Shown here in pieces: positions 14,073-30,650 of a stretch of 38,961 nucleotides of DNA. The stretch comes from Candidatus Bathyarchaeota archaeon (GTDB lineage Archaea; Thermoproteota; Bathyarchaeia; 40CM-2-53-6; RBG-13-38-9), in the NCBI GenBank assembly GCA_018396915.1, contig JAGTRD010000017.1, positions 1 through 38,961 of the forward strand, read 5' to 3'. Each line of letters starts with the position of its first letter. Positions within the stretch are counted from its first letter, which is position 1. The translations under genes and the position numbers were made by a program. A model generated the notes under the pieces. That model did not search any database and was not told where the DNA came from. It saw only the letters and a program-made list of their open reading frames with translations.

Positions 14073-16025
14073 TTGAGCCGCATCAGCATAGTTGCATTGG
14101 CCACATTCATATTGACTTTATCTATATTCTCCTCAATGTGTAGTGCGAGTAGAAGTAATCCGAATCCTCAAGGCGGAGTGGTCTTCACTGAAACAATTCT
14201 TTCAAAAGATAAGATATATGACGGTGAAGATGTAACCCTAACCTTCGCCGTCAGGAACATAGAGTCGTCCGACAAACTCTTTTACATTAAAATCTACAGG
14301 CAGGAGGAGCTCATCTACAATGGGAAAACGAGTCCATTCGAATGTGTGAAAGGTGAGACTACTGGAAGGATGCGTATACCCCTCCCAGGTTGGATAGGTC
14401 CTGGAACCTATACTTTAACAGTCGAGTTGACCTCAGCAACATCAGATACCACGCTCGACTCTAAAACGCTCATGTTGACCGTTGTGAAGTTGACAGCAGG
14501 AGACTGGGCATCTTCAGTCTCAAATGCAACTTGGGGATTGAATGAGACGCTTCCATTCAGAGTAAACTTCACAAACATAGGCAACGACGACATGTTCGAC
14601 GCAGTCCTGACAGTCATTAAGTCCAACCTGAAGATAAGCCCACTCAGCAGCGGCAACATGGGCAGAGTAAGAAGTTTCGAGACGAAGACAGTAACATTCA
14701 CATTAGGATCATTGAACGAGAAAGAGGTTAAGCCTGGAACCTACAAGATCACATTCAGACTCTTATTCAACGACTTCAGAGGCATAGCCCACAGTCAAGA
14801 TGAAACCTTAGATTTCAAACTGGAGAAGATGAGGCTGAATATCAACCTCTCAACAACCCCTCCAAACCCGAAATATGGTGAGGAGATACGGTTCAAGTTG
14901 AAGCTGACAGATATGAAAGGTAAACCTCTACCTGATGAGCAGTTAAACATACAAGTAGGAAAAGCCACAATGCAAAACCTAACAGATCGAAATGGAGAAA
15001 CCACCTACACTTACAGGGGCATACTAGATTCAGGCGAACATAATATCAAAACAATATACAACGGATCAGAATATTACATGAATCTTACGAAAACGTTCAG
15101 ACTGAAAATAGATCCTCTCGCAACGATCCTGATAATAAAGACTCCAAAAATATTGAATGCAACAGTACCTGCCACTTTAAATTTGACCCTCCTCGACGAG
15201 TCGGGGAGACCCCTGAAAGGACAGAAGCTAGAGATCCTTTTGAAAACGCAGACTGAAGAAATCCCCTACGAAAAATTGACTGAGAAGAATGGTGAAGCAT
15301 ATCTGACATTGAATTTGACAAGGTCAGGCGATTTTCAGTTGCAAGCCAACTTTCCAGGGTCGAGGAACTATCTCAAGACCAGCAACTCCTCCACACTCAC
15401 CTTGAATAGAGCTTCAACAAGATTGAAGGTACACAGTAACCAAACAGTTCTATTTGCAGGCAACATTGCAGAATTCGAGATTACAGTCAGAGACCTCCTC
15501 AACAGACCTGTAAGAAATGTGCCTGTAGAGATAAGATGTGATGATGAACCGTCCACCGTCTCCAATACCGACTTGGAGGGCAAGGTGAAGAAGACCGTCG
15601 ATTTGAAGATTCCAATGTTATACAAGACAGTGAGGGTTCAAGCAGTCTTCAATGGAGACGATGTCTACGCTCCTTGCTCAGGCGAAATAGAGATATTAAA
15701 CGTAAATCCAGCAACAGTCTTCGGTTTAGCAGCGACTCTGACAGGGGGGACCGTATCGACCCTCATATACATTGCAAGAAAGAGAGCCGCCAAGATTATG
15801 AGACCTCTACCTAAAACCAAGCCTGTAACCTCAAAGAAGTCTCCACCAATCCATGAGGAGACTCTGACCCCGCTGGATGAGAGGGTTTACAAATATATAG
15901 TTGAGCATTCAGGGGTTATATCTTGGAGTAAAGCATCCCAAGATCTCGGCCTCTCAGTTGAGGAGATTAAGGAGGCTACTCGGAGACTCAAGGAAGCAGG
16001 TAGAATCGCACCTAGTTCAGAGTAG
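14073..16025 (+). CDS. Secreted Ig-like repeat protein with C-terminal membrane span and cytoplasmic winged helix
   Basis: 650 residues. A signal-peptide-like N-terminus (ISIVALATFILTLSIFSSMC) leads into at least four beta-sandwich domains of the adhesion/CARDB/Ig type; SRPLKGQKLEILL-like segments and repeated GE.T..Y patterns mark linker-strand repeats. A hydrophobic stretch near 548-568 (VFGLAATLTGGTVSTLIYIA) is followed by a basic stop-transfer RKRAAK. The last 50 residues form a winged-helix-like domain (LDERVYKYIVEHSGVISWSK onward) almost superimposable on the one in the protein at 10847-11458. The topology is outside beta domains, one membrane span, inside putative DNA- or protein-binding domain, so a one-component sensor-regulator is conceivable. 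TTG start without an obvious Shine-Dalgarno. Confidence 0.75.
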   Translation: MSRISIVALATFILTLSIFSSMCSASRSNPNPQGGVVFTETILSKDKIYDGEDVTLTFAVRNIESSDKLFYIKIYRQEELIYNGKTSPFECVKGETTGRMRIPLPGWIGPGTYTLTVELTSATSDTTLDSKTLMLTVVKLTAGDWASSVSNATWGLNETLPFRVNFTNIGNDDMFDAVLTVIKSNLKISPLSSGNMGRVRSFETKTVTFTLGSLNEKEVKPGTYKITFRLLFNDFRGIAHSQDETLDFKLEKMRLNINLSTTPPNPKYGEEIRFKLKLTDMKGKPLPDEQLNIQVGKATMQNLTDRNGETTYTYRGILDSGEHNIKTIYNGSEYYMNLTKTFRLKIDPLATILIIKTPKILNATVPATLNLTLLDESGRPLKGQKLEILLKTQTEEIPYEKLTEKNGEAYLTLNLTRSGDFQLQANFPGSRNYLKTSNSSTLTLNRASTRLKVHSNQTVLFAGNIAEFEITVRDLLNRPVRNVPVEIRCDDEPSTVSNTDLEGKVKKTVDLKIPMLYKTVRVQAVFNGDDVYAPCSGEIEILNVNPATVFGLAATLTGGTVSTLIYIARKRAAKIMRPLPKTKPVTSKKSPPIHEETLTPLDERVYKYIVEHSGVISWSKASQDLGLSVEEIKEATRRLKEAGRIAPSSE

Positions 16026-16048: not shown

Positions 16049-16447
16049 TCACCAGTAACGGGGTTGCGGAACCGACATCCCATAGCATTGCGGGCAGAAG
16101 ACCATGTTGTAGTAGAATCTGCCGCAAGCCTTGCATATCTGGCGGCTACACCTGCTACATATATATGTTGCAGGGAGATCTCTGTGGTAACTGCATGTGC
16201 CCATTGACGGCACCCTCATAGTTACAGTTCTTCCTTGGAGTGGTTGAATAGGGGGCGCCATTCTGGGTGGGGTGATGACCCTGACGGTCGGTGCAGGCTT
16301 AGGGATCTGGATGGATGGGGTAGCGACTTGGCCTGTCGGCTGTGCCGGTGGGGTTTCAATAGGGGGTAGATGCATCGGACTACCACAGTCGTAACAGAAC
16401 TTCGCCCGTTTTGGGTTTGCTTTACCGCATTTTGGGCAAGTCGGCAA
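16049..16447 (-). CDS. Soluble zinc-ribbon plus B-box-like treble-clef protein; candidate E3-like factor
   Basis: 132 residues, last gene of the ubiquitin-like cassette. An N-terminal zinc ribbon (C4, C7, C18, C21) is followed by a proline-rich linker and a binuclear zinc module with ligands C85, H88, C97, C100, C105, C108, C118 and C121, i.e. C-x2-H-x8-C-x2-C-x4-C-x2-C-x9-C-x2-C. This resembles prokaryotic B-box/RING-type treble clefs. Its start TTG is 10 nt after the E1 stop, with GGAG overlapping that stop, so it is tightly coupled to E1. In the Caldiarchaeum ubiquitin cluster a small RING-like zinc protein is the E3; the same role is inferred here from position and zinc fold. It is a paralogue of the N-terminal part of the protein at 19857-20699. 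Confidence 0.75.
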   Translation of the reverse strand: MPTCPKCGKANPKRAKFCYDCGSPMHLPPIETPPAQPTGQVATPSIQIPKPAPTVRVITPPRMAPPIQPLQGRTVTMRVPSMGTCSYHRDLPATYICSRCSRQICKACGRFYYNMVFCPQCYGMSVPQPRYW

Positions 16448-16459
16448 ATCTTCACTCTC

Positions 16460-17701
16460 CTAAATCAGTTTGATGATAGCCTCATTATATTCACCGGCCC
16501 TTCTTTTAAAAGTAACTCGTAAATAATCTCCCCTCCTCAATTCTTTCTTCAGAGGCTTGACTTCACCTATGGGGGTCATCCCCAATCTTGAAAGTTTGAA
16601 TATATGCATCTCTTCAAAGTCAGGAAGTATTTTCTTGAAGACTCTGTCTTGACTGGTCGATTCGAAGATCTTCAAGGGAACATCAAGCCTCATAACGGTG
16701 TCTCTTGCTTCACCGTGCTCACCACAGATGACACATTCTTTATTCCTTGAGAGTTTGACTATGGAGTATTTGTTATGTTTAACGTCAGCTATCCATATTC
16801 CCCTCATAGGTTCACCTGTAACCTCAGGCCACCTCCCCTCTTCAAGATATGTCCTGTAACCTAGAATAATTTTGACTGCTTCATGACTCTGCAGCGAGGC
16901 TACTAAAGATATGGAGGTTGATAGGGAAGGAACCTTAGCATCCTCAACAGGTGCATCGCATGGATTTCTAAGTCCAAGCATCCTGCCATATTGGTTTGGA
17001 GGTATAGGACATGCCAAGCATGGGTCGTTCGGAGGGATATATGATTGGACTCTGCACTGGTATCCCATCACACCTGCGTCTACCATAGGGACCATATACC
17101 TTCGGCAGATTGATGTTAAAAAGGCTCTGGATGCGAAGTTGTCTAGAGAACTCAAAATTATATCTGACTCCAAAAATGTTCTGAGAGGAATTTTTTCAAG
17201 TCGACCTTGAATAGCTGTGACTTCTATGTGAGGGTATTTCCGATGCAAAGCCTCCGCAAGAACAGTAGATTTTGGTTTTCCAGAATCTTCCTTACTAAAG
17301 AATATCATCCTACTCAGGTTCGATACTTCAACAGTATCATAGTCGACTATGATCAGTCTTCCAACTCCGAGCATGGCAAGATTCTTTGCAACCTCATTTC
17401 CCACCGCTCCAGCCCCAGCGATCAAAACTTTAGATCTGTTCAAGGCAGCTTGGCCCTTAGTATCCCAGAGGATGAGTTGTCTAGACCATAAATAGTCAAC
17501 TTCAAAATTCAAGAACCTTCTTTTATACTTCGATAGCGGAGTATTCTCCTTTAACGGTTTACCGTCAAGAAGAATCTTCGTAAGGTCAGGTTCGAGACCT
17601 AACCTTTCACATATAAGCCTCTTCAGCTTATCAACCGTTATTTTGGGGGTGACTTCAAACTCTATCTTCTTCACGGATGGAATTTTCGCTGTGACCTTCA
17701 A
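16460..17701 (-). CDS. E1-like ubiquitin-activating enzyme with N-terminal ubiquitin-like domain
   Basis: Activates a ubiquitin-like protein by C-terminal adenylation and thioester transfer. Order: residues 1-70 form a ubiquitin-like beta-grasp segment (ITVDKLKRLICERLGLEPDL, then ILLDGKPLKENTPLSKY). Residues 72-290 are the ThiF/MoeB/E1 adenylation fold with GAGAVG (96-101), D120 and R131. Zinc cysteines are C228/C231 and C323/C326. C248 (GLRNPCDAP) is the best catalytic-cysteine candidate, because the usual PSC position is PSL here (258-260). Residues 330-413 form a basic C-terminal domain, possibly an E2-docking ubiquitin-fold domain. TTG start behind GAAGGG, 17 nt after the E2 stop. MoeB/ThiF alone is unlikely because of the E2 and modifier next door. 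Confidence 0.88.
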   Translation of the reverse strand: MKVTAKIPSVKKIEFEVTPKITVDKLKRLICERLGLEPDLTKILLDGKPLKENTPLSKYKRRFLNFEVDYLWSRQLILWDTKGQAALNRSKVLIAGAGAVGNEVAKNLAMLGVGRLIIVDYDTVEVSNLSRMIFFSKEDSGKPKSTVLAEALHRKYPHIEVTAIQGRLEKIPLRTFLESDIILSSLDNFASRAFLTSICRRYMVPMVDAGVMGYQCRVQSYIPPNDPCLACPIPPNQYGRMLGLRNPCDAPVEDAKVPSLSTSISLVASLQSHEAVKIILGYRTYLEEGRWPEVTGEPMRGIWIADVKHNKYSIVKLSRNKECVICGEHGEARDTVMRLDVPLKIFESTSQDRVFKKILPDFEEMHIFKLSRLGMTPIGEVKPLKKELRRGDYLRVTFKRRAGEYNEAIIKLI

Positions 17702-17718
17702 GAATTGCCCTTCAAAAT

Positions 17719-18300
17719 TTAAGGCTTGTAAGGCCTCAGGATGGTGAATTTGACAATGTCTCCTGTTTGAGTTTTCTGCCCTGAAACTGCCGGGACCGGT
17801 ATGATATTAAACTTTGCTGTGTCAGATTCATGCGCTCCCAAATTCCTACGCATCTTTGGGAAACCATGCTCTCTACATATCTTGGCAGCCTCCAAACATT
17901 TGGGGTGGTCGAAGACATTGTTAGGATTTGGATCTGACAGGAGGTAGTATAGGGCATTAACTACTGAGACCAGTTTAAGGTTAGGCCTCCAATTCTCACC
18001 TATTATCGACACGCATACTGCGCCTGGAATGTTTGGAACTATATTTGGATGTCCAATCTCTGTGAGCCAAGTTACTAGGGGAGGTTTCAAGGGATATTCC
18101 GGAGGCAACTCAAACCTGAACCTCTGCCACTGAACATATTCAGTGAAAGGCCAGATCTTCTTATCGGCAAGCCTCTTCACTTCCCCCTTCTCACATCTGA
18201 GCATACCCTCATAGATGGTAGGTGGATCATTGAGGGCTGCAACTGTTGGAAACTGATGGTTTAGAAAACTCTTCTCCTTGTAGAGTAGGGGGATATTCAA
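17719..18300 (-). CDS. E2-like ubiquitin-conjugating enzyme
   Basis: Accepts the ubiquitin-like protein from E1 on a cysteine and passes it to targets. 193 residues. The UBC core is easily read: FRFELPPEYPLKPPLVTW (about 61-78), the HPN tripeptide (84-86), the active cysteine C96 in GAVCVSII, the tryptophan of ENWRPNL (W104), and LLSDPNPNN (120-128). These match the eukaryotic pattern of YPxxPP, HPN, active cysteine, W.P and LL.DPN. The N-terminal 30 residues and a beta-rich tail after 150 (NIIPVPAVSGQKTQTGDIVK) are extensions to the core. TTG start 3 nt after the modifier stop with only a GGCGGT overlapping that stop, so translation is probably coupled. Confidence 0.92.
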   Translation of the reverse strand: MNIPLLYKEKSFLNHQFPTVAALNDPPTIYEGMLRCEKGEVKRLADKKIWPFTEYVQWQRFRFELPPEYPLKPPLVTWLTEIGHPNIVPNIPGAVCVSIIGENWRPNLKLVSVVNALYYLLSDPNPNNVFDHPKCLEAAKICREHGFPKMRRNLGAHESDTAKFNIIPVPAVSGQKTQTGDIVKFTILRPYKP

Positions 18301-18303
18301 AAT

Positions 18304-18546
18304 TTAACCGCCGATGATGTTGTATGGCATCAATGCGAGTTGAGCGTTTTCAGGTATCCCAGCAGCAGCTACTGTGATACTATCATCCAATATGACCCCA
18401 CCATACATCAGAGCTACTGTTGACTGATCTATTCCGAATGAGTTGCAGACCTGCTGCTTTATCTCGCTTATCGTATGGTCTGGTAGAACATCTATCTCTG
18501 CAAGCCCAGACTGCGGTCCGATAGGTGCCTGAATAAACAGTTTCAT
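18304..18546 (-). CDS. Ubiquitin-like modifier ending in Gly-Gly
   Basis: 80 residues with a ubiquitin beta-grasp pattern: strand MKLFIQAP, strand LAEIDVLP, helix HTISEIKQQVCNSFGI, then STVALMYGGVILDD and QLALMPYNIIGG. The natural C-terminus is Gly79-Gly80, so no protease is needed to expose it, unlike modifiers made with an extra tail. Only two lysines (K2, K30) and no arginine are present. It has the strongest Shine-Dalgarno of the cassette (GGAGGTGA about 10 nt before ATG), fitting the need for many copies of modifier per enzyme. Directly followed by E2 and E1. Specific targets cannot be predicted. Confidence 0.9.
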   Translation of the reverse strand: MKLFIQAPIGPQSGLAEIDVLPDHTISEIKQQVCNSFGIDQSTVALMYGGVILDDSITVAAAGIPENAQLALMPYNIIGG

Positions 18547-18593
18547 GGGTTTTCACTCACCTCCAGAATGAGTCGTTACCATGAACATAAACC

Positions 18594-19760
18594 TTACCCA
18601 AATTCAGGTTTAACGTTCAGAGCGACCTCCGTGGTGTGTGTCAAGACACCGTCTGTAGCTGTTATCGTTAGGTTGAAGGTTCCGAGTGGAGATAGTGCCG
18701 TCGTCGATATGACGAGAACAAGCCTCTGAACTGTCCCTGAAAGGCTTGTGGTGTTCCTGTATGTTGTGAAGGTGTATCTGATGCCTCCGAATCCCCCTGT
18801 CGGCAGTCCTGAGACTTGGAGGGTAACATCACCACTATAACCATTCCTAGCTGTAAGGGTGACATTGTAATATGCGGCTGAGCCACGTCTTATCTCTATA
18901 GATGTGGGTGCTGCAGATATATCGAAGTCTCTTGGAGGGTTTACCTTTATGGTCAAGGTAGTTGTATGTGTCAGATTTCCACTCCAACCAGTCACAGTCA
19001 CCGTGTATATTCCTGATGGTGCTGAGGTGACGGAGGAGAAAGTCAATGTTGAATAGGCCAATCCATTCGATGGAGGGGTAACCGTTTGAGGATTGAATGT
19101 CGCCGTGACTCCTGAAGGCAATCCTGTTATCGAGAGTGATACCGGCGAATTGAAGCCTCTGAGCGACCCAACAGTTACAACTGTGTTGTTTCCGTAGCCT
19201 GCTGAGAATACGAGTCTTTTAGCCTCGATTGAGATGTTGAAGTTCTTGACCTGTATGAAGTATGCCCTGGTGTTTGTGGATAGGCCTAGGGAGTTCACCG
19301 CCTCAATATAGTAGGTGATGTCCGAGGTTACCTCAGGACCCGGTATCACGGCTACATATGGTTGGACCCCTGCAGGTGGCAGCTCCATAAGTTTCTTCTT
19401 CCAAACACCCTCATCGACAACATTATAGTGAAGGGTTGCGTTCTGCAACCATGTCCCACCACCAACAATGGTTGCGTTCAAGCTCACAGGACTGTTGGCT
19501 AACCCTTGAACTACAGGTGTATGCGTTATGCCCGGCGGCCTATAAATAAATAGGAATATCGATGCTGTCGATGTTAAGAGTAGCCCTGCAAATAGGAGGA
19601 CCAGCAGCAAGATCCTTAAGGGTTGCCTACTCGGTCTGGGATAGTATGTCGGCACAGGCCTGGGTCTCGGTGGAGGATAGTATCCTCTCGAGGGTGCATG
19701 GCCGGCTGGTTCAATTTTATAGCATGGTAAGGACATATCAATCCCAAATTCTTTCAACAT
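18594..19760 (-). CDS. Membrane-anchored Ig-like protein of the ubiquitin-like cassette
   Basis: 388 residues: a cytoplasmic proline/tyrosine/arginine-rich N-terminus (about 1-47, GYYPPPRPRPVPTYYPRP), one membrane span (about 49-72, ILLLVLLFAGLLLTSTASIFLFI), then an external part. That part has three beta-sandwich domains rich in N-glycosylation-like NxS/T sites; the last two (FNISIEAKRLVFSAGYG and DFDISAAPTSIEIRRGSA) repeat the same pattern seen in the large secreted protein (DFSISISPDHQRIGPGQ). No enzyme motif. It lies 47 nt upstream of the modifier gene and on the same strand, so it is probably cotranscribed. It could be a membrane platform or substrate of the system, or simply a neighbouring envelope gene. 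ATG with GGAAGG upstream. Confidence 0.75.
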   Translation of the reverse strand: MLKEFGIDMSLPCYKIEPAGHAPSRGYYPPPRPRPVPTYYPRPSRQPLRILLLVLLFAGLLLTSTASIFLFIYRPPGITHTPVVQGLANSPVSLNATIVGGGTWLQNATLHYNVVDEGVWKKKLMELPPAGVQPYVAVIPGPEVTSDITYYIEAVNSLGLSTNTRAYFIQVKNFNISIEAKRLVFSAGYGNNTVVTVGSLRGFNSPVSLSITGLPSGVTATFNPQTVTPPSNGLAYSTLTFSSVTSAPSGIYTVTVTGWSGNLTHTTTLTIKVNPPRDFDISAAPTSIEIRRGSAAYYNVTLTARNGYSGDVTLQVSGLPTGGFGGIRYTFTTYRNTTSLSGTVQRLVLVISTTALSPLGTFNLTITATDGVLTHTTEVALNVKPEFG

Positions 19761-19856
19761 GGCTTATTACCTTCCATATAGCCTCAGCTAATATACTAAC
19801 GTATGGCGCCATCGTACCTCCAGAGACTCTTATGATGTAAAAAGGGGTGGGGAGGT

Positions 19857-20699
19857 TTATTTTCCAAGTATGCCTAGTATTCCACCGACCATTCCAAGTA
19901 CCAGTGCAACTATACCTGCTGCGATTGGTAGATAGACATATGTCGTAGGCACCATTATGAGCAGTGCCAGGTAGATGTTAGCAAGAGAGAATACAAATGC
20001 AATGATGCCTCCAAGCGTTGTATATCCGAGACGTATCAGGAATGATCCGAGAATCACAACTAGACCTAGCAACAGGCCGACTCCTAGGAAAGCCAGCCAG
20101 TATGGCGCTAACCATGCTGGGACCAGTGCCAGGTTTGCATATAGGATCGCAGTGGCTGCCGCACCGGCTATTATAGTAACTATTCCAGCTACCAATGATA
20201 GGATGAAGCCCCATAGGGCACTTGGCCTAGGTGGCAGGAATGGGACTGGAACCATTCCAGGCGGTGGTCCTGGAATAGCTGGCGGCGGACCGATTGGTGC
20301 ACCCATAGGCATAGTCGGTGTTGGTGGCGGTGCCGGATACTGCGCCGGATAGGCTGTTGGATAACCTGTTGGGTATGCAGTCGGATATGTTGGGACTGTT
20401 ACAGGAACTATTCCAGCATAGCATTGGGGACATAAGACCAAGTCGCCATAGAATCGCGCATCATCTCTGCATATAGCCCTCCCACACCTACTGCATATGT
20501 ATTGGGCCGGAAGATTCGGATGGTAGTAACACATCCCTGGGGGTGGAACCCTGTATGGGACAGATGGTACTGCAGGACGGACAACCTTCACTGACGGGAC
20601 AGGTTTCACTGCAGGAGCGGCGAATGATGCTCCACAGCTTGAGCAGAATGTTGCATCGTCTCTGTTGGCTGCTCCACAGCTTGAACATTGCTTAACCAA
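19857..20699 (-). CDS. Zinc-ribbon plus B-box-like protein with four membrane spans
   Basis: 280 residues, first gene of the cassette. Zinc ribbon C5, C8, C19, C22; then a binuclear zinc module C57, H60, C69, C72, C77, D80, C90, C93 (C-x2-H-x8-C-x2-C-x4-C-x2-D). A long Pro/Tyr/Gly-rich linker with YPT/YPA repeats (about 100-155) follows, then four hydrophobic segments to the C-terminus (from WGFILSLVAGIVTIIAG to GIVALVLGMVGGILG). The zinc half is paralogous to the protein at 16049-16447; the second module differs by D80 in place of a cysteine. A membrane-bound E3-like or adaptor role is inferred from the zinc fold and operon. TTG start with GGAGG seven nt upstream. Confidence 0.78.
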   Translation of the reverse strand: MVKQCSSCGAANRDDATFCSSCGASFAAPAVKPVPSVKVVRPAVPSVPYRVPPPGMCYYHPNLPAQYICSRCGRAICRDDARFYGDLVLCPQCYAGIVPVTVPTYPTAYPTGYPTAYPAQYPAPPPTPTMPMGAPIGPPPAIPGPPPGMVPVPFLPPRPSALWGFILSLVAGIVTIIAGAAATAILYANLALVPAWLAPYWLAFLGVGLLLGLVVILGSFLIRLGYTTLGGIIAFVFSLANIYLALLIMVPTTYVYLPIAAGIVALVLGMVGGILGILGK

Positions 20700-20900: not shown

Positions 20901-21009
20901 GCCCCGGTAGCTCAGCCTGGTTAGATGCCGGTGGACAGCAGAGAGCGTTGGCTTGGTAGACTCAACAAAGAGTCAAAGGTCACGGGTTCGAAACCCGTCC
21001 GGGGCTCCA
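20901..21009 (+). tRNA. tRNA-Thr(GGT) with two introns
   Basis: After removing two insertions a regular 78-nt tRNA with encoded CCA remains. Parts: acceptor GCCCCGG/CCGGGGC; D stem GCTC/GAGC; anticodon stem TTGGC/GTCAA (one G-T pair) with loop TTGGTAA and anticodon GGT at 20955-20957; T arm ACGGG-TTCGAAA-CCCGT; discriminator T, which fits archaeal tRNA-Thr. Intron 1 is 19 nt inside the 3' strand of the D stem (20926-20944; its edges can shift by up to two bases because of a GA repeat). Intron 2 is 12 nt at the canonical 37/38 site (20959-20970). Together 78+19+12 equals the 109 nt observed. GACTC-AACAAA-GAGTC forms a hairpin across the second intron. Confidence 0.88.
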
Positions 21010-26667: not shown

Positions 26668-26780
26668 GAGTTAATTATTACATCGTTAAACGGCTGGCTG
26701 AATTCATCGGTGACACCAACCATTTTATGTTTGACCTGTATAATTTAGTCTGAAGGAGTCTGGTCAGGTGCGGAGATTTG

Positions 26781-27998
26781 ATGTATAAAGACTTTGTGAA
26801 TCTAAACTACAGTCCGAGAGATGACGACCTGATATGTGAATTTACAGTTGAACCTGAAGGGGTGAGTTTAGAGGAGGCTGCTGGTGCAGTTGCAGCTGAG
26901 AGCTCTATTGGAACATGGACTGAACTCTCAACGATGAGGACCTATGTTACGGATCTACATGCAACGGTATTCATGATGGAAGGTGGGAGGATCAAGGTCG
27001 CTTATCCAATTGATCTGTTCGAGTCTGGGAATATGCCGAATATTTTGAGCAGCATCGCAGGAAATGTCTTCGGACTCAAAACGTTGAAGGGCCTCCGTCT
27101 AGAAGACATAAACATACCGAGAAGACTCGTCAAAAATTTCAAGGGCCCGAAATATGGAGTGGCTGGTGTGAGGGAGATCACAGGGGTCTATGGGAGGCCA
27201 CTCCTTGGAACGATAATTAAGCCGAAGATAGGGCTCAGAACCCAGGACCATGCAAAGGTAGCTTACGATGCTTGGATAGGAGGCTGCGACATAGTCAAGG
27301 ACGATGAGAACCTGAGCAGCCAAAGATTCAATCCCTTCGAGGACAGAGTCATAGAGACTCTGAAGATGAGGGATAAAGCTGAAGGGGAGACTGGTGAGAG
27401 GAAAATGTACATGGTGAATGTGACCGCTGAGACTGAGGAGATGTTGAGGAGGGCGAGTTTCGTTGAGGAGCAGGGTGGAGAATATATTATGGTCGATATT
27501 CTGACATGTGGATGGTCAGCCCTACAAACCTTGAGGAACAGGGATCTCAACCTGGTGATTCATGCACATAGGGCTGGGCATGCGGCGTTCACTAGGAACC
27601 CAAAGCATGGAATATCTATGAATGTCATAGCGAAGATCGTTAGGATAATAGGTTTAGACCAGTTGCATGTAGGTGCAGCCTTCGGCAAGATGTCTGAGGG
27701 TGAGGGTGAAGTTAAGCGGAACTGTGAGGTGTTGAGGGGTGACCTCTACGGTTTAAAGGAGGTTATGCCGGTTGCGTCGGGAGGTCTCCATCCCAGAACT
27801 GTGCCGCCTCTCATCGAAAATTTCGGCCTAGATATTGTCATTCAGGCTGGTGGGGGGATACATGGACATCCCGGAGGGACTATTTCAGGAGCCAAGGCTA
27901 TGAGGCAGGCTATAGAGGCATCAGTCAAAGGTGTAAGCCTTGATGATTATGCGGGTTCACATCCTGAACTCGATCAAGCATTGAAGTTGTGGCTTTAA
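26781..27998 (+). CDS. rbcL: Ribulose-bisphosphate carboxylase, form III
   Basis: 405 residues. All catalytic signatures are present: TIIKPKIGL with the first active lysine (K147), GGCDIVKDDEN with the carbamylated lysine K173 and metal ligands D175/E176, HAHRAGHAAF, the loop-6 lysine in GAAFGKMSEGEG, and VASGGLHP. It is therefore a genuine carboxylase and not a RuBisCO-like protein of form IV. In archaea form III enzymes fix CO2 onto ribulose bisphosphate derived from AMP, making 3-phosphoglycerate. The partner genes (AMP phosphorylase and R15P isomerase) converge on it from the opposite strand with a 9-nt gap. ATG with GGAG six nt upstream; a TTG one codon earlier is also open. Confidence 0.95.
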   Translation: MYKDFVNLNYSPRDDDLICEFTVEPEGVSLEEAAGAVAAESSIGTWTELSTMRTYVTDLHATVFMMEGGRIKVAYPIDLFESGNMPNILSSIAGNVFGLKTLKGLRLEDINIPRRLVKNFKGPKYGVAGVREITGVYGRPLLGTIIKPKIGLRTQDHAKVAYDAWIGGCDIVKDDENLSSQRFNPFEDRVIETLKMRDKAEGETGERKMYMVNVTAETEEMLRRASFVEEQGGEYIMVDILTCGWSALQTLRNRDLNLVIHAHRAGHAAFTRNPKHGISMNVIAKIVRIIGLDQLHVGAAFGKMSEGEGEVKRNCEVLRGDLYGLKEVMPVASGGLHPRTVPPLIENFGLDIVIQAGGGIHGHPGGTISGAKAMRQAIEASVKGVSLDDYAGSHPELDQALKLWL

Positions 27999-29573: not shown

Positions 29574-30650
29574 TTACTGTTGATCCTCAGTTATCTTGTA
29601 GGTCTGATACTTTAATAGCTCATCTGGCTGGATTGAGCCGAATAGTTCATGGATAACCATTATGGCGCCTTGAGGGGGGATTATGCCTCTCTCGGTAACT
29701 ATGAGGTCTACATATTCAGGTGGTGTTACATCGAAGGCTGGGTTCCTGACTCTTATCTTCGGGTATTTTCGGATGAAGTTTTTCGAAACAACCTCAGTCG
29801 CATCCCTCTCCTCAACGGTTACGAGTTCACCCATGACTGTTTCTGGGCTGAACTTGTAGGTTTCACTTGCAACCATGAATTGTGTTCTGGCTTCATGGGC
29901 CAGGGTCGCTATGGTTGAGGTCCCTATTTTATTCACAACCGCTCCGTTGGCTGCGATAGCGTCGGCTCCGACGACTACCTTGTCGACATCATTCATGAAG
30001 TATCTCGCCGCTGAGTCGACTATTAAGGTTATAGGGATACCTAGCCTGGAGAGTATGGTTGCAGTCTCTCTTCCCTGATATCTAGGTCTTGTCTCCGTGA
30101 CGTACACACTGAACCTTCTACCGTTCATCCAAGCTCTTCTCATAACCTCGACGGCCGCAGCGCTGTGGCAGTGTGTCAAGAGGACATCACCGTCTCTTAT
30201 ACGTCTAGAACCTATCTCACCTATCCGCTCGACAGCCTTCATTGACTCCTCGATGAATTCATCGGCGGCAGTCAACGCGACAGATCTTATTCTCTCAAGG
30301 TCCATGCTACCCATACTGGCCATATTGACTCTATGCATCACATACCTTACACCGTTAGCCAAGGAGACGGCGGTGGGTCTGGTTGATAGAAGTCTCTTGG
30401 CAGCATCTTCAAGCTCAACCAAGAGGGTCTTCCCGTCCTTCGCCCTAGAATGTTTAGCGACCATTCTTATCGCTGAGACCGCATGTCTAGCTATATTCCC
30501 TGCACCTCTAACACGCATACTCTCAATATCTGAAGTTGCCTTCTCCAAAAATTTCGAGATGTTCAAACAAACCACTACAAAAGATATGTTGTCGATAGCC
30601 AATAACTGTTTACTTCCAGTTTCAAAGAAATGTTTCTGTAAAGTTCTCAT
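29574..30650 (-). CDS. Ribose-1,5-bisphosphate isomerase
   Basis: Converts ribose 1,5-bisphosphate to ribulose 1,5-bisphosphate, the substrate of RuBisCO. Belongs to the eIF2B alpha/beta/delta-like family: MRVRGAGNIARHA (sugar-phosphate site), DVLLTHCHSAAAVEVMR with the cysteine, ETRPRYQGRETATILSRLGI, VVVGADAIAANGAVVNKIGT with the catalytic aspartate, and FDVTPPEYVDLIVTE. The 358-residue frame is about 35 longer than usual; the first 30 residues look unconserved and a later TTG (LNISKFLEKA) may be the true start. First gene of a two-gene operon with AMP phosphorylase. Confidence 0.9.
   Translation of the reverse strand: MRTLQKHFFETGSKQLLAIDNISFVVVCLNISKFLEKATSDIESMRVRGAGNIARHAVSAIRMVAKHSRAKDGKTLLVELEDAAKRLLSTRPTAVSLANGVRYVMHRVNMASMGSMDLERIRSVALTAADEFIEESMKAVERIGEIGSRRIRDGDVLLTHCHSAAAVEVMRRAWMNGRRFSVYVTETRPRYQGRETATILSRLGIPITLIVDSAARYFMNDVDKVVVGADAIAANGAVVNKIGTSTIATLAHEARTQFMVASETYKFSPETVMGELVTVEERDATEVVSKNFIRKYPKIRVRNPAFDVTPPEYVDLIVTERGIIPPQGAIMVIHELFGSIQPDELLKYQTYKITEDQQ

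Follow-up and report, generated by a model that had tools for sequence, protein, structure and literature searches.

The archaeal ubiquitin cascades known so far have been viewed as cytosolic precursors of the proteasome tagging of eukaryotes. The Caldiarchaeum operon has been reconstituted in vitro, and its Rpn11 processes a modifier that carries a tail (PMC5654768, PMC6043591), while among bacteria the Bil modifier has two ubiquitin-like (UBL) domains and the Bil E1 two adenylation domains (PMC11354881). Here we analyse a ubiquitin-like cassette in a Candidatus Bathyarchaeota archaeon (assembly GCA_018396915.1, 1.63 Mb and about 96% complete); the window, meaning the whole stretch of DNA analysed, is the entire contig JAGTRD010000017.1 of 38,961 nucleotides. 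We found no description of this cassette in the literature; some of its loci may already be listed in supplementary material, for example in the extended cluster figure of PMC5654768. The most likely reading, and in our estimate a probable one judging from gene content and comparative sequence data, is that its products would form a ubiquitin-like conjugation (and deconjugation) cascade assembled at, or tethered to, the cell membrane.

Gene content of the cassette

The cassette (positions 16049-20699, minus strand) consists of six ORFs on one strand, in transcription order zfTM, Ig, modifier, E2, E1 and zf132, with intergenic gaps of 96, 47, 3, 17 and 12 bases; promoter and terminator scans here gave scores near shuffle levels. 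A reading of the sequence alone had proposed a same-strand ubiquitin-like cassette of six tightly ordered genes, and all six ORFs were found as placed. The core comprises a ubiquitin-like modifier of 80 aa (18304..18546, minus strand as for all six genes; Pfam ubiquitin 7.2e-10), tail-less in the window genome with the C-terminus ALMPYNIIGG; an E2 ubiquitin-conjugating-like enzyme of 193 aa (17719..18300; UQ_con 1.6e-17) with HPN at 84-86 and candidate catalytic C96; and an E1-like enzyme of 413 aa (16460..17701) with an adenylation/zinc domain (one ThiF domain, 2.2e-54), candidate catalytic C248 in GLRNPC and a C-terminal domain of ~80 aa. The E1 carries in addition an N-terminal UBL (about residues 1-62; Pfam ubiquitin 2.9e-09) that the sequence-only reading had not mentioned.

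The other three genes flank this core. Downstream lies zf132 (132 aa, 16049..16447), a soluble zinc-ribbon and B-box protein (Pfam B-box 25.6 bits, cut-off 24.1) at the position of the Caldiarchaeum RING protein, and a putative E3 or E2 cofactor. At the head is zfTM (280 aa, 19857..20699), a putative membrane platform or E3 in which a zinc ribbon and a B-box-like treble-clef module, the latter below the Pfam threshold, are accompanied by a Pro-rich linker and 4-5 hydrophobic segments. It is followed by an Ig-like single-span protein (388 aa, 18594..19760) with a short, predicted cytosolic Pro-rich tail and an Ig-like ectodomain. By hydropathy, then, the membrane components that had been proposed are real candidates in zfTM and the Ig protein, and the second zinc-finger protein, zf132, has no span.

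Several other features of the window were noted. A gene convergent with the 3' end of the cassette (14073-16025, plus strand) encodes a multi-Ig, surface-like protein whose C-terminal domain is winged-helix-like. At 20902-21008 (plus strand) there is an apparent tRNA gene with intron-like insertions in the D-arm and anticodon regions; ARAGORN called none in the window, and the Rfam tRNA match was partial and below threshold. A RuBisCO large subunit gene (26778-27998, plus strand) and a gene for an IF-2B family protein, a ribose-1,5-bisphosphate isomerase candidate (29574-30650, minus strand), lie close together, which suggests the archaeal AMP/RuBisCO pathway.

Conservation and selection

Cassettes were sought through their E2 in 201 genomes and through their E1 in all 257 genomes of the class; a separate scan of genome contigs took in close E2 relatives only. 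All the loci compared come from metagenome-type assemblies. The full-length cassette was present in 14 genomes (that of the window and 13 others), all within one taxonomic order, and in the loci read its gene order was fixed. The test set in advance for the earlier reading was whether the membrane genes stay beside E1 and E2, and by and large they do: zfTM was kept in all 12 cassettes with a contig long enough to reach it, and the Ig gene in 10 of 13, the contig of the 14th ending too early. The three cassettes without it (G002, G004 and G008) all belong to the window's family, so the Ig gene is not essential.

The motifs originally pointed out in the window proved to be invariant in alignments of 12-13 genomes, namely the modifier's terminal GG, the HPN and C96 of E2, and the E1 zinc cysteines C228/C231/C323/C326, together with the extra cysteine C248; the glycine-rich loop, Asp and Arg of E1 were conserved along with the zinc cysteines. 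Identity to the window across relatives was 81-100% for the modifier, the most conserved part, 60-97% for E2 and 42-94% for E1. Between the window and a relative from the same genus, dN/dS was 0 for the modifier, 0.06 for E2, 0.12 for E1, 0.04 for zfTM, 0.08 for the Ig gene and 0.31 for zf132; in this comparison all six genes are under purifying selection, weakest for zf132. Such recurrence of gene order with low dN/dS is far beyond chance. These comparisons show that the predicted modifier, E1, E2, two zinc-ribbon/B-box proteins and Ig-like protein form one conserved, selected gene set.

The adenylation domain and zinc cysteines of the E1 resemble those of ThiF/MoeB, as expected if the E1 were an adenylyltransferase of ThiF/MoeB type serving a modifier that carries sulfur (ThiS/MoaD/Urm1-like). 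However, this E1 is linked to an E2 with conserved HPN and Cys, the modifier's profile is that of ubiquitin, the window genome has a separate ThiF/MoeB-type homologue on another contig (C4), and in a tree the cassette E1s stand apart from ThiF-type E1s with 100/100 support. We regard a sulfur-carrier role as very improbable.

Presence of the cassette within the taxonomic order is patchy, a pattern that would suit a defence or conflict system tagging viral or foreign proteins, like bacterial Bil and the CBASS-linked E1/E2. PADLOC E1-E2 models do match the E1 adenylation domain, and bacteria use related enzymes against phage (cited in PMC12660748). Against this, the clades of the E1 tree agree mostly with host families, so that inheritance looks largely vertical with losses; the modifier is almost frozen, not fast-evolving; a viral-contig scan found no relative; and E2, modifier and zf132 drew no PADLOC match, whether to a nucleotide cyclase, an effector or anything else. 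A defence function is in our view quite improbable, and we retain the membrane cascade as the preferred reading.

The Ig gene as a transmembrane JAMM in relatives

The sequence-only reading had seen no JAMM/Rpn11 isopeptidase at the locus, and on this point it must be corrected, since a JAMM domain lies within the Ig gene of relatives, a remnant of it persists in the window, and two complete Rpn11-type JAMMs are encoded elsewhere in the window genome. When the Rpn11-like JAMMs of that genome were used as queries against 111 genomes, secondary matches fell inside the cassette Ig ORF of six (G009, G012, G016, G017, G019 and G036); in a seventh, G011, the same protein is divided over two contigs. 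These proteins of about 500-535 aa have an N-terminal JAMM domain, matched by Pfam JAB at 5e-12 to 6e-17 in the four that were scanned, then one hydrophobic helix, and then a region homologous to the window's Ig protein, which would thus be the membrane half of an ancestral JAMM-TM-Ig isopeptidase. The nearest sequence matches of this JAMM domain are CSN5 (7.8e-18) and the Rpn11 of Caldiarchaeum (5e-17). In an AlphaFold2 model of the G019 protein (mean pLDDT 83.5), a JAMM fold is followed by a helix at residues 169-189 and then by beta-sandwich domains; Foldseek matched its JAMM part to CSN5 and Rpn11 (TM-score 0.75 on target) and the remainder to tandem Ig domains.

Lys and Arg are more frequent on the JAMM side of the single hydrophobic span, so that by hydropathy and the positive-inside rule the JAMM domain is predicted to lie inside and the Ig domains outside. 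N-glycosylation sequons were considered as a further sign of an outside Ig domain and set aside, being weakly enriched in the window's family (90, 88 and 69 of 2000 shuffles) and not in the relatives. G016, G019, G036 and the distant G539 (described next) retain the full set of JAMM residues E/H/H/S/D. Four of the seven transmembrane JAMMs have lost the catalytic Glu: G009, G012 and G017 show R or K at its position, and G011 shows Ala (read by eye); loss of this residue resembles the condition of MPN-minus subunits such as Rpn8.

A related system occurs in G539, from another class of the same phylum. There the modifier (63% identity to that of the window) and E2 (46%) are fused, joined exactly at GG. 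The E1 that accompanies them has an N-terminal UBL, the zinc-ribbon/B-box protein has a single hydrophobic segment, and the JAMM protein, of 595 aa, has one span. Membrane-anchored JAMM and membrane B-box protein thus recur in a second lineage. We do not take G539 as proof of wide spread, because only one of the 81 genomes searched from its class has the system; its acquisition by transfer is possible for the same reason.

Loss of the operon JAMM in the window's genus

Between zfTM and the start of the Ig gene, the window has a GGAGGT ribosome-binding-like site, an ATG, then MAPYVSILAEAIWKVISHVERIWD and a stop codon (19812-19738; 19738..19812, minus strand), and this short reading frame aligns with the first 20 residues of the relatives' transmembrane JAMM. 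As high a score was reached by 1 of 1000 DNA shuffles and by 2 of 2000 residue shuffles. G001, of the same genus, keeps a longer remnant with one in-frame stop that matches the JAMM start and the IEDxI...GE segment (0 of 2000 residue shuffles). Judging by these alignments, the operon JAMM of this genus has decayed to a short remnant under its apparent original ribosome-binding site.

Outside the cassette the window genome encodes two complete Rpn11-type JAMMs, one fused to a coiled coil (on C1) and one of 144 aa (on C28), besides a third JAMM of prokaryotic (Prok-JAB) type on C25. The C1 protein (L036:7304-8314, equal to G000:C1:93303-94310), in which the coiled coil is N-terminal, has Rpn11 as its closest match (8.8e-17). 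Coiled-coil JAMMs were found in the window's family (G000, G001, G002, G005, G006 and G008), where the operon JAMM is lost or unseen, and may have taken over its role. We do not claim that the operon JAMM moved to C1, as the tree gives no support for or against a descent of the C1 protein from the lost operon JAMM. Of the 14 genomes with the cassette, 13 have the stand-alone C28-type JAMM, against 2 of the 97 without it (Fisher p = 5e-14, with relatedness ignored), and its E/H/H/S/D residues are complete in all aligned sequences of the type; this co-occurrence makes it the best candidate for a working isopeptidase.

Modifier lysines and processing at GG

The modifier has 1-3 lysines across relatives, of which K30 alone, aligned with ubiquitin K27, is invariant. 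The positions of ubiquitin K11, K29, K48 and K63 hold no lysine, and with K2 and K30 as the sole lysines of the window's modifier, single tags are more to be expected than long chains of K48 or K63 type, which are unlikely. The lack of any K or R after K30 leaves a long tryptic remnant; the predicted Glu-C mark on target lysines is NAQLALMPYNIIGG. Seven of 13 relatives in the taxonomic order have 2-8 residues beyond the modifier's GG, and these tails, together with the G539 fusion exactly at GG, indicate that GG is probably a cleavage or processing site.

Chain signals bear on whether the locus simply encodes a standard ubiquitin system like that of Caldiarchaeum, working in the cytosol to direct proteins to the proteasome, with the membrane genes as regulatory neighbours. 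Its core order of modifier, E2, E1 and zinc finger is that of the reconstituted Caldiarchaeum system (PMC5654768), three proteasome subunits are encoded in the window genome, and so are soluble Rpn11-type JAMMs. Nonetheless zfTM is strongly constrained and kept wherever it could be seen, the operon JAMM is itself membrane-spanning in relatives and in G539, and the missing lysines limit the chain signals that the modifier could offer; we consider the proteasome alternative unlikely. The earlier suggestion that the cassette does not feed the proteasome is mildly favoured by the lysine-poor modifier, but goes further than can be concluded for a genome with those three subunits.

Proposed mechanism

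Under the membrane cascade that we prefer, and following the established chemistry of these enzyme families, E1 would adenylate the modifier at its GG and pass it as a thioester to C248 and then to C96 of E2, beside HPN. B-boxes are RING-like cross-brace modules, and the two B-box proteins may act as E3s or E2 docking platforms, with zfTM bringing charged E2 to the inner face of the membrane. A Foldseek search with the zf132 model gave no structural match for its B-box module at E ≤ 0.001, so that an E3 role is a guess made from gene position and type of domain. Proteins close to the membrane would receive the modifier, for the most part singly or in short chains, and JAMM enzymes would trim precursors at GG and remove the modifier. 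In species with the fusion, the isopeptidase would be tethered to a surface-exposed Ig region; in the window's lineage the Ig protein may stay on as a partner or receptor while soluble JAMMs cleave.

In relatives the Ig gene is predicted to encode an enzyme that removes the tag and is joined across the membrane to an outward antibody-like region, and on that ground this ubiquitin-type system seems to act at the cell surface. A fuller reading, which we offer tentatively as a possible but doubtful one, is that Bathyarchaeia evolved a transmembrane receptor-like isopeptidase (outward Ig region, one helix, cytosolic Rpn11-type JAMM) that works with a membrane-embedded B-box ligase, so that the state of the cell surface would control ubiquitin-like tagging at the membrane; certain lineages would have turned the JAMM into an inactive subunit that binds the modifier and pairs with an active, soluble JAMM, and the window's lineage would have lost the JAMM and kept the receptor. 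This family of Bathyarchaeota, which lies outside the groups with such operons in the literature found, would, on the membrane cascade that we prefer, link the chemistry of the known archaeal cascades to the membrane by way of an isopeptidase that spans it and a B-box protein embedded in it. If this is true, archaea have a counterpart to the tagging of membrane proteins and the regulated removal of the tag, which are usually seen as eukaryotic. The series from complete through catalytically altered transmembrane JAMM to remnant is a testable history of JAMM enzymes becoming scaffold subunits.

Comparison with known systems

Caldiarchaeum-type loci were examined at L107-L113, L117 and L118, a label that rests on gene content and on the L117 modifier, which matches the solved archaeal protein at 3e-37. 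A multi-span membrane protein with C-terminal RING lies a few genes from the Caldiarchaeum-type cassettes in five of the loci read (L107:7380-8132, L109:1014-1718, L110:8295-9020, L111:499-1194 and L117:8430-9125; Pfam zf-RING_2 9.9e-09 in L117), so that the two kinds of cassette may have in common a zinc-finger partner bound to the membrane. Some Caldiarchaeum-type genomes also have a second, divergent system, with a modifier-E2 fusion at GG beside a JAMM gene (L115:4552-5869 and L116:4232-5531); in L115 it also includes genes for a short E1 of 280 aa and a zinc-finger protein of 106 aa, and in L116 it adjoins pilus/secretion-like genes.

Bacterial BilABCD resembles the cassettes of the window's relatives in uniting modifier, E1, E2 and JAMM in one operon. 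The window differs from it in having one UBL in its 80-aa modifier and one adenylation domain in its 413-aa E1, which places it outside BilABCD as defined, and no membrane B-box protein is reported in BilABCD as described (PMC11354881). It lies outside the CBASS E1/E2 (Cap2) type as well, having E1 and E2 as separate genes and no cyclase among the cassette genes. With eukaryotic CSN5/Rpn11 the relatives share the JAMM domain, and differ by their single span and Ig-like ectodomain.

The Caldiarchaeum subterraneum operon has, like the window, a single GG modifier, an E2, a single-chain E1 and a small zinc protein in the same order, which bears out the earlier description of a Caldiarchaeum-like core headed by membrane genes; like the relatives' cassettes, it is associated with an Rpn11-type JAMM, and its modifier is at times tailed past GG. 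Identity is 33% over 64 aa for the modifier and 43% over 69 aa for E2. Compared with the Caldiarchaeum-type E1, that of the window has the extra N-terminal UBL and lacks the insert after the catalytic cysteine, so that C248 sits in a short loop, as the catalytic cysteine does in compact E1s. Where Caldiarchaeum has the small RING finger E3 (srfp), the window has the B-box protein zf132; neither of its zinc-finger proteins is a RING by profile, zfTM matching only Prok-RING_1 at 17.8 bits (cut-off 29.1). The Rpn11-type JAMM adjoins the Caldiarchaeum operon as a separate soluble gene, whereas it is a TM-Ig fusion in the relatives and a remnant in the window. We class the cassette as a variant of the Caldiarchaeum-type cassette, outside the Caldiarchaeum family in the strict sense.
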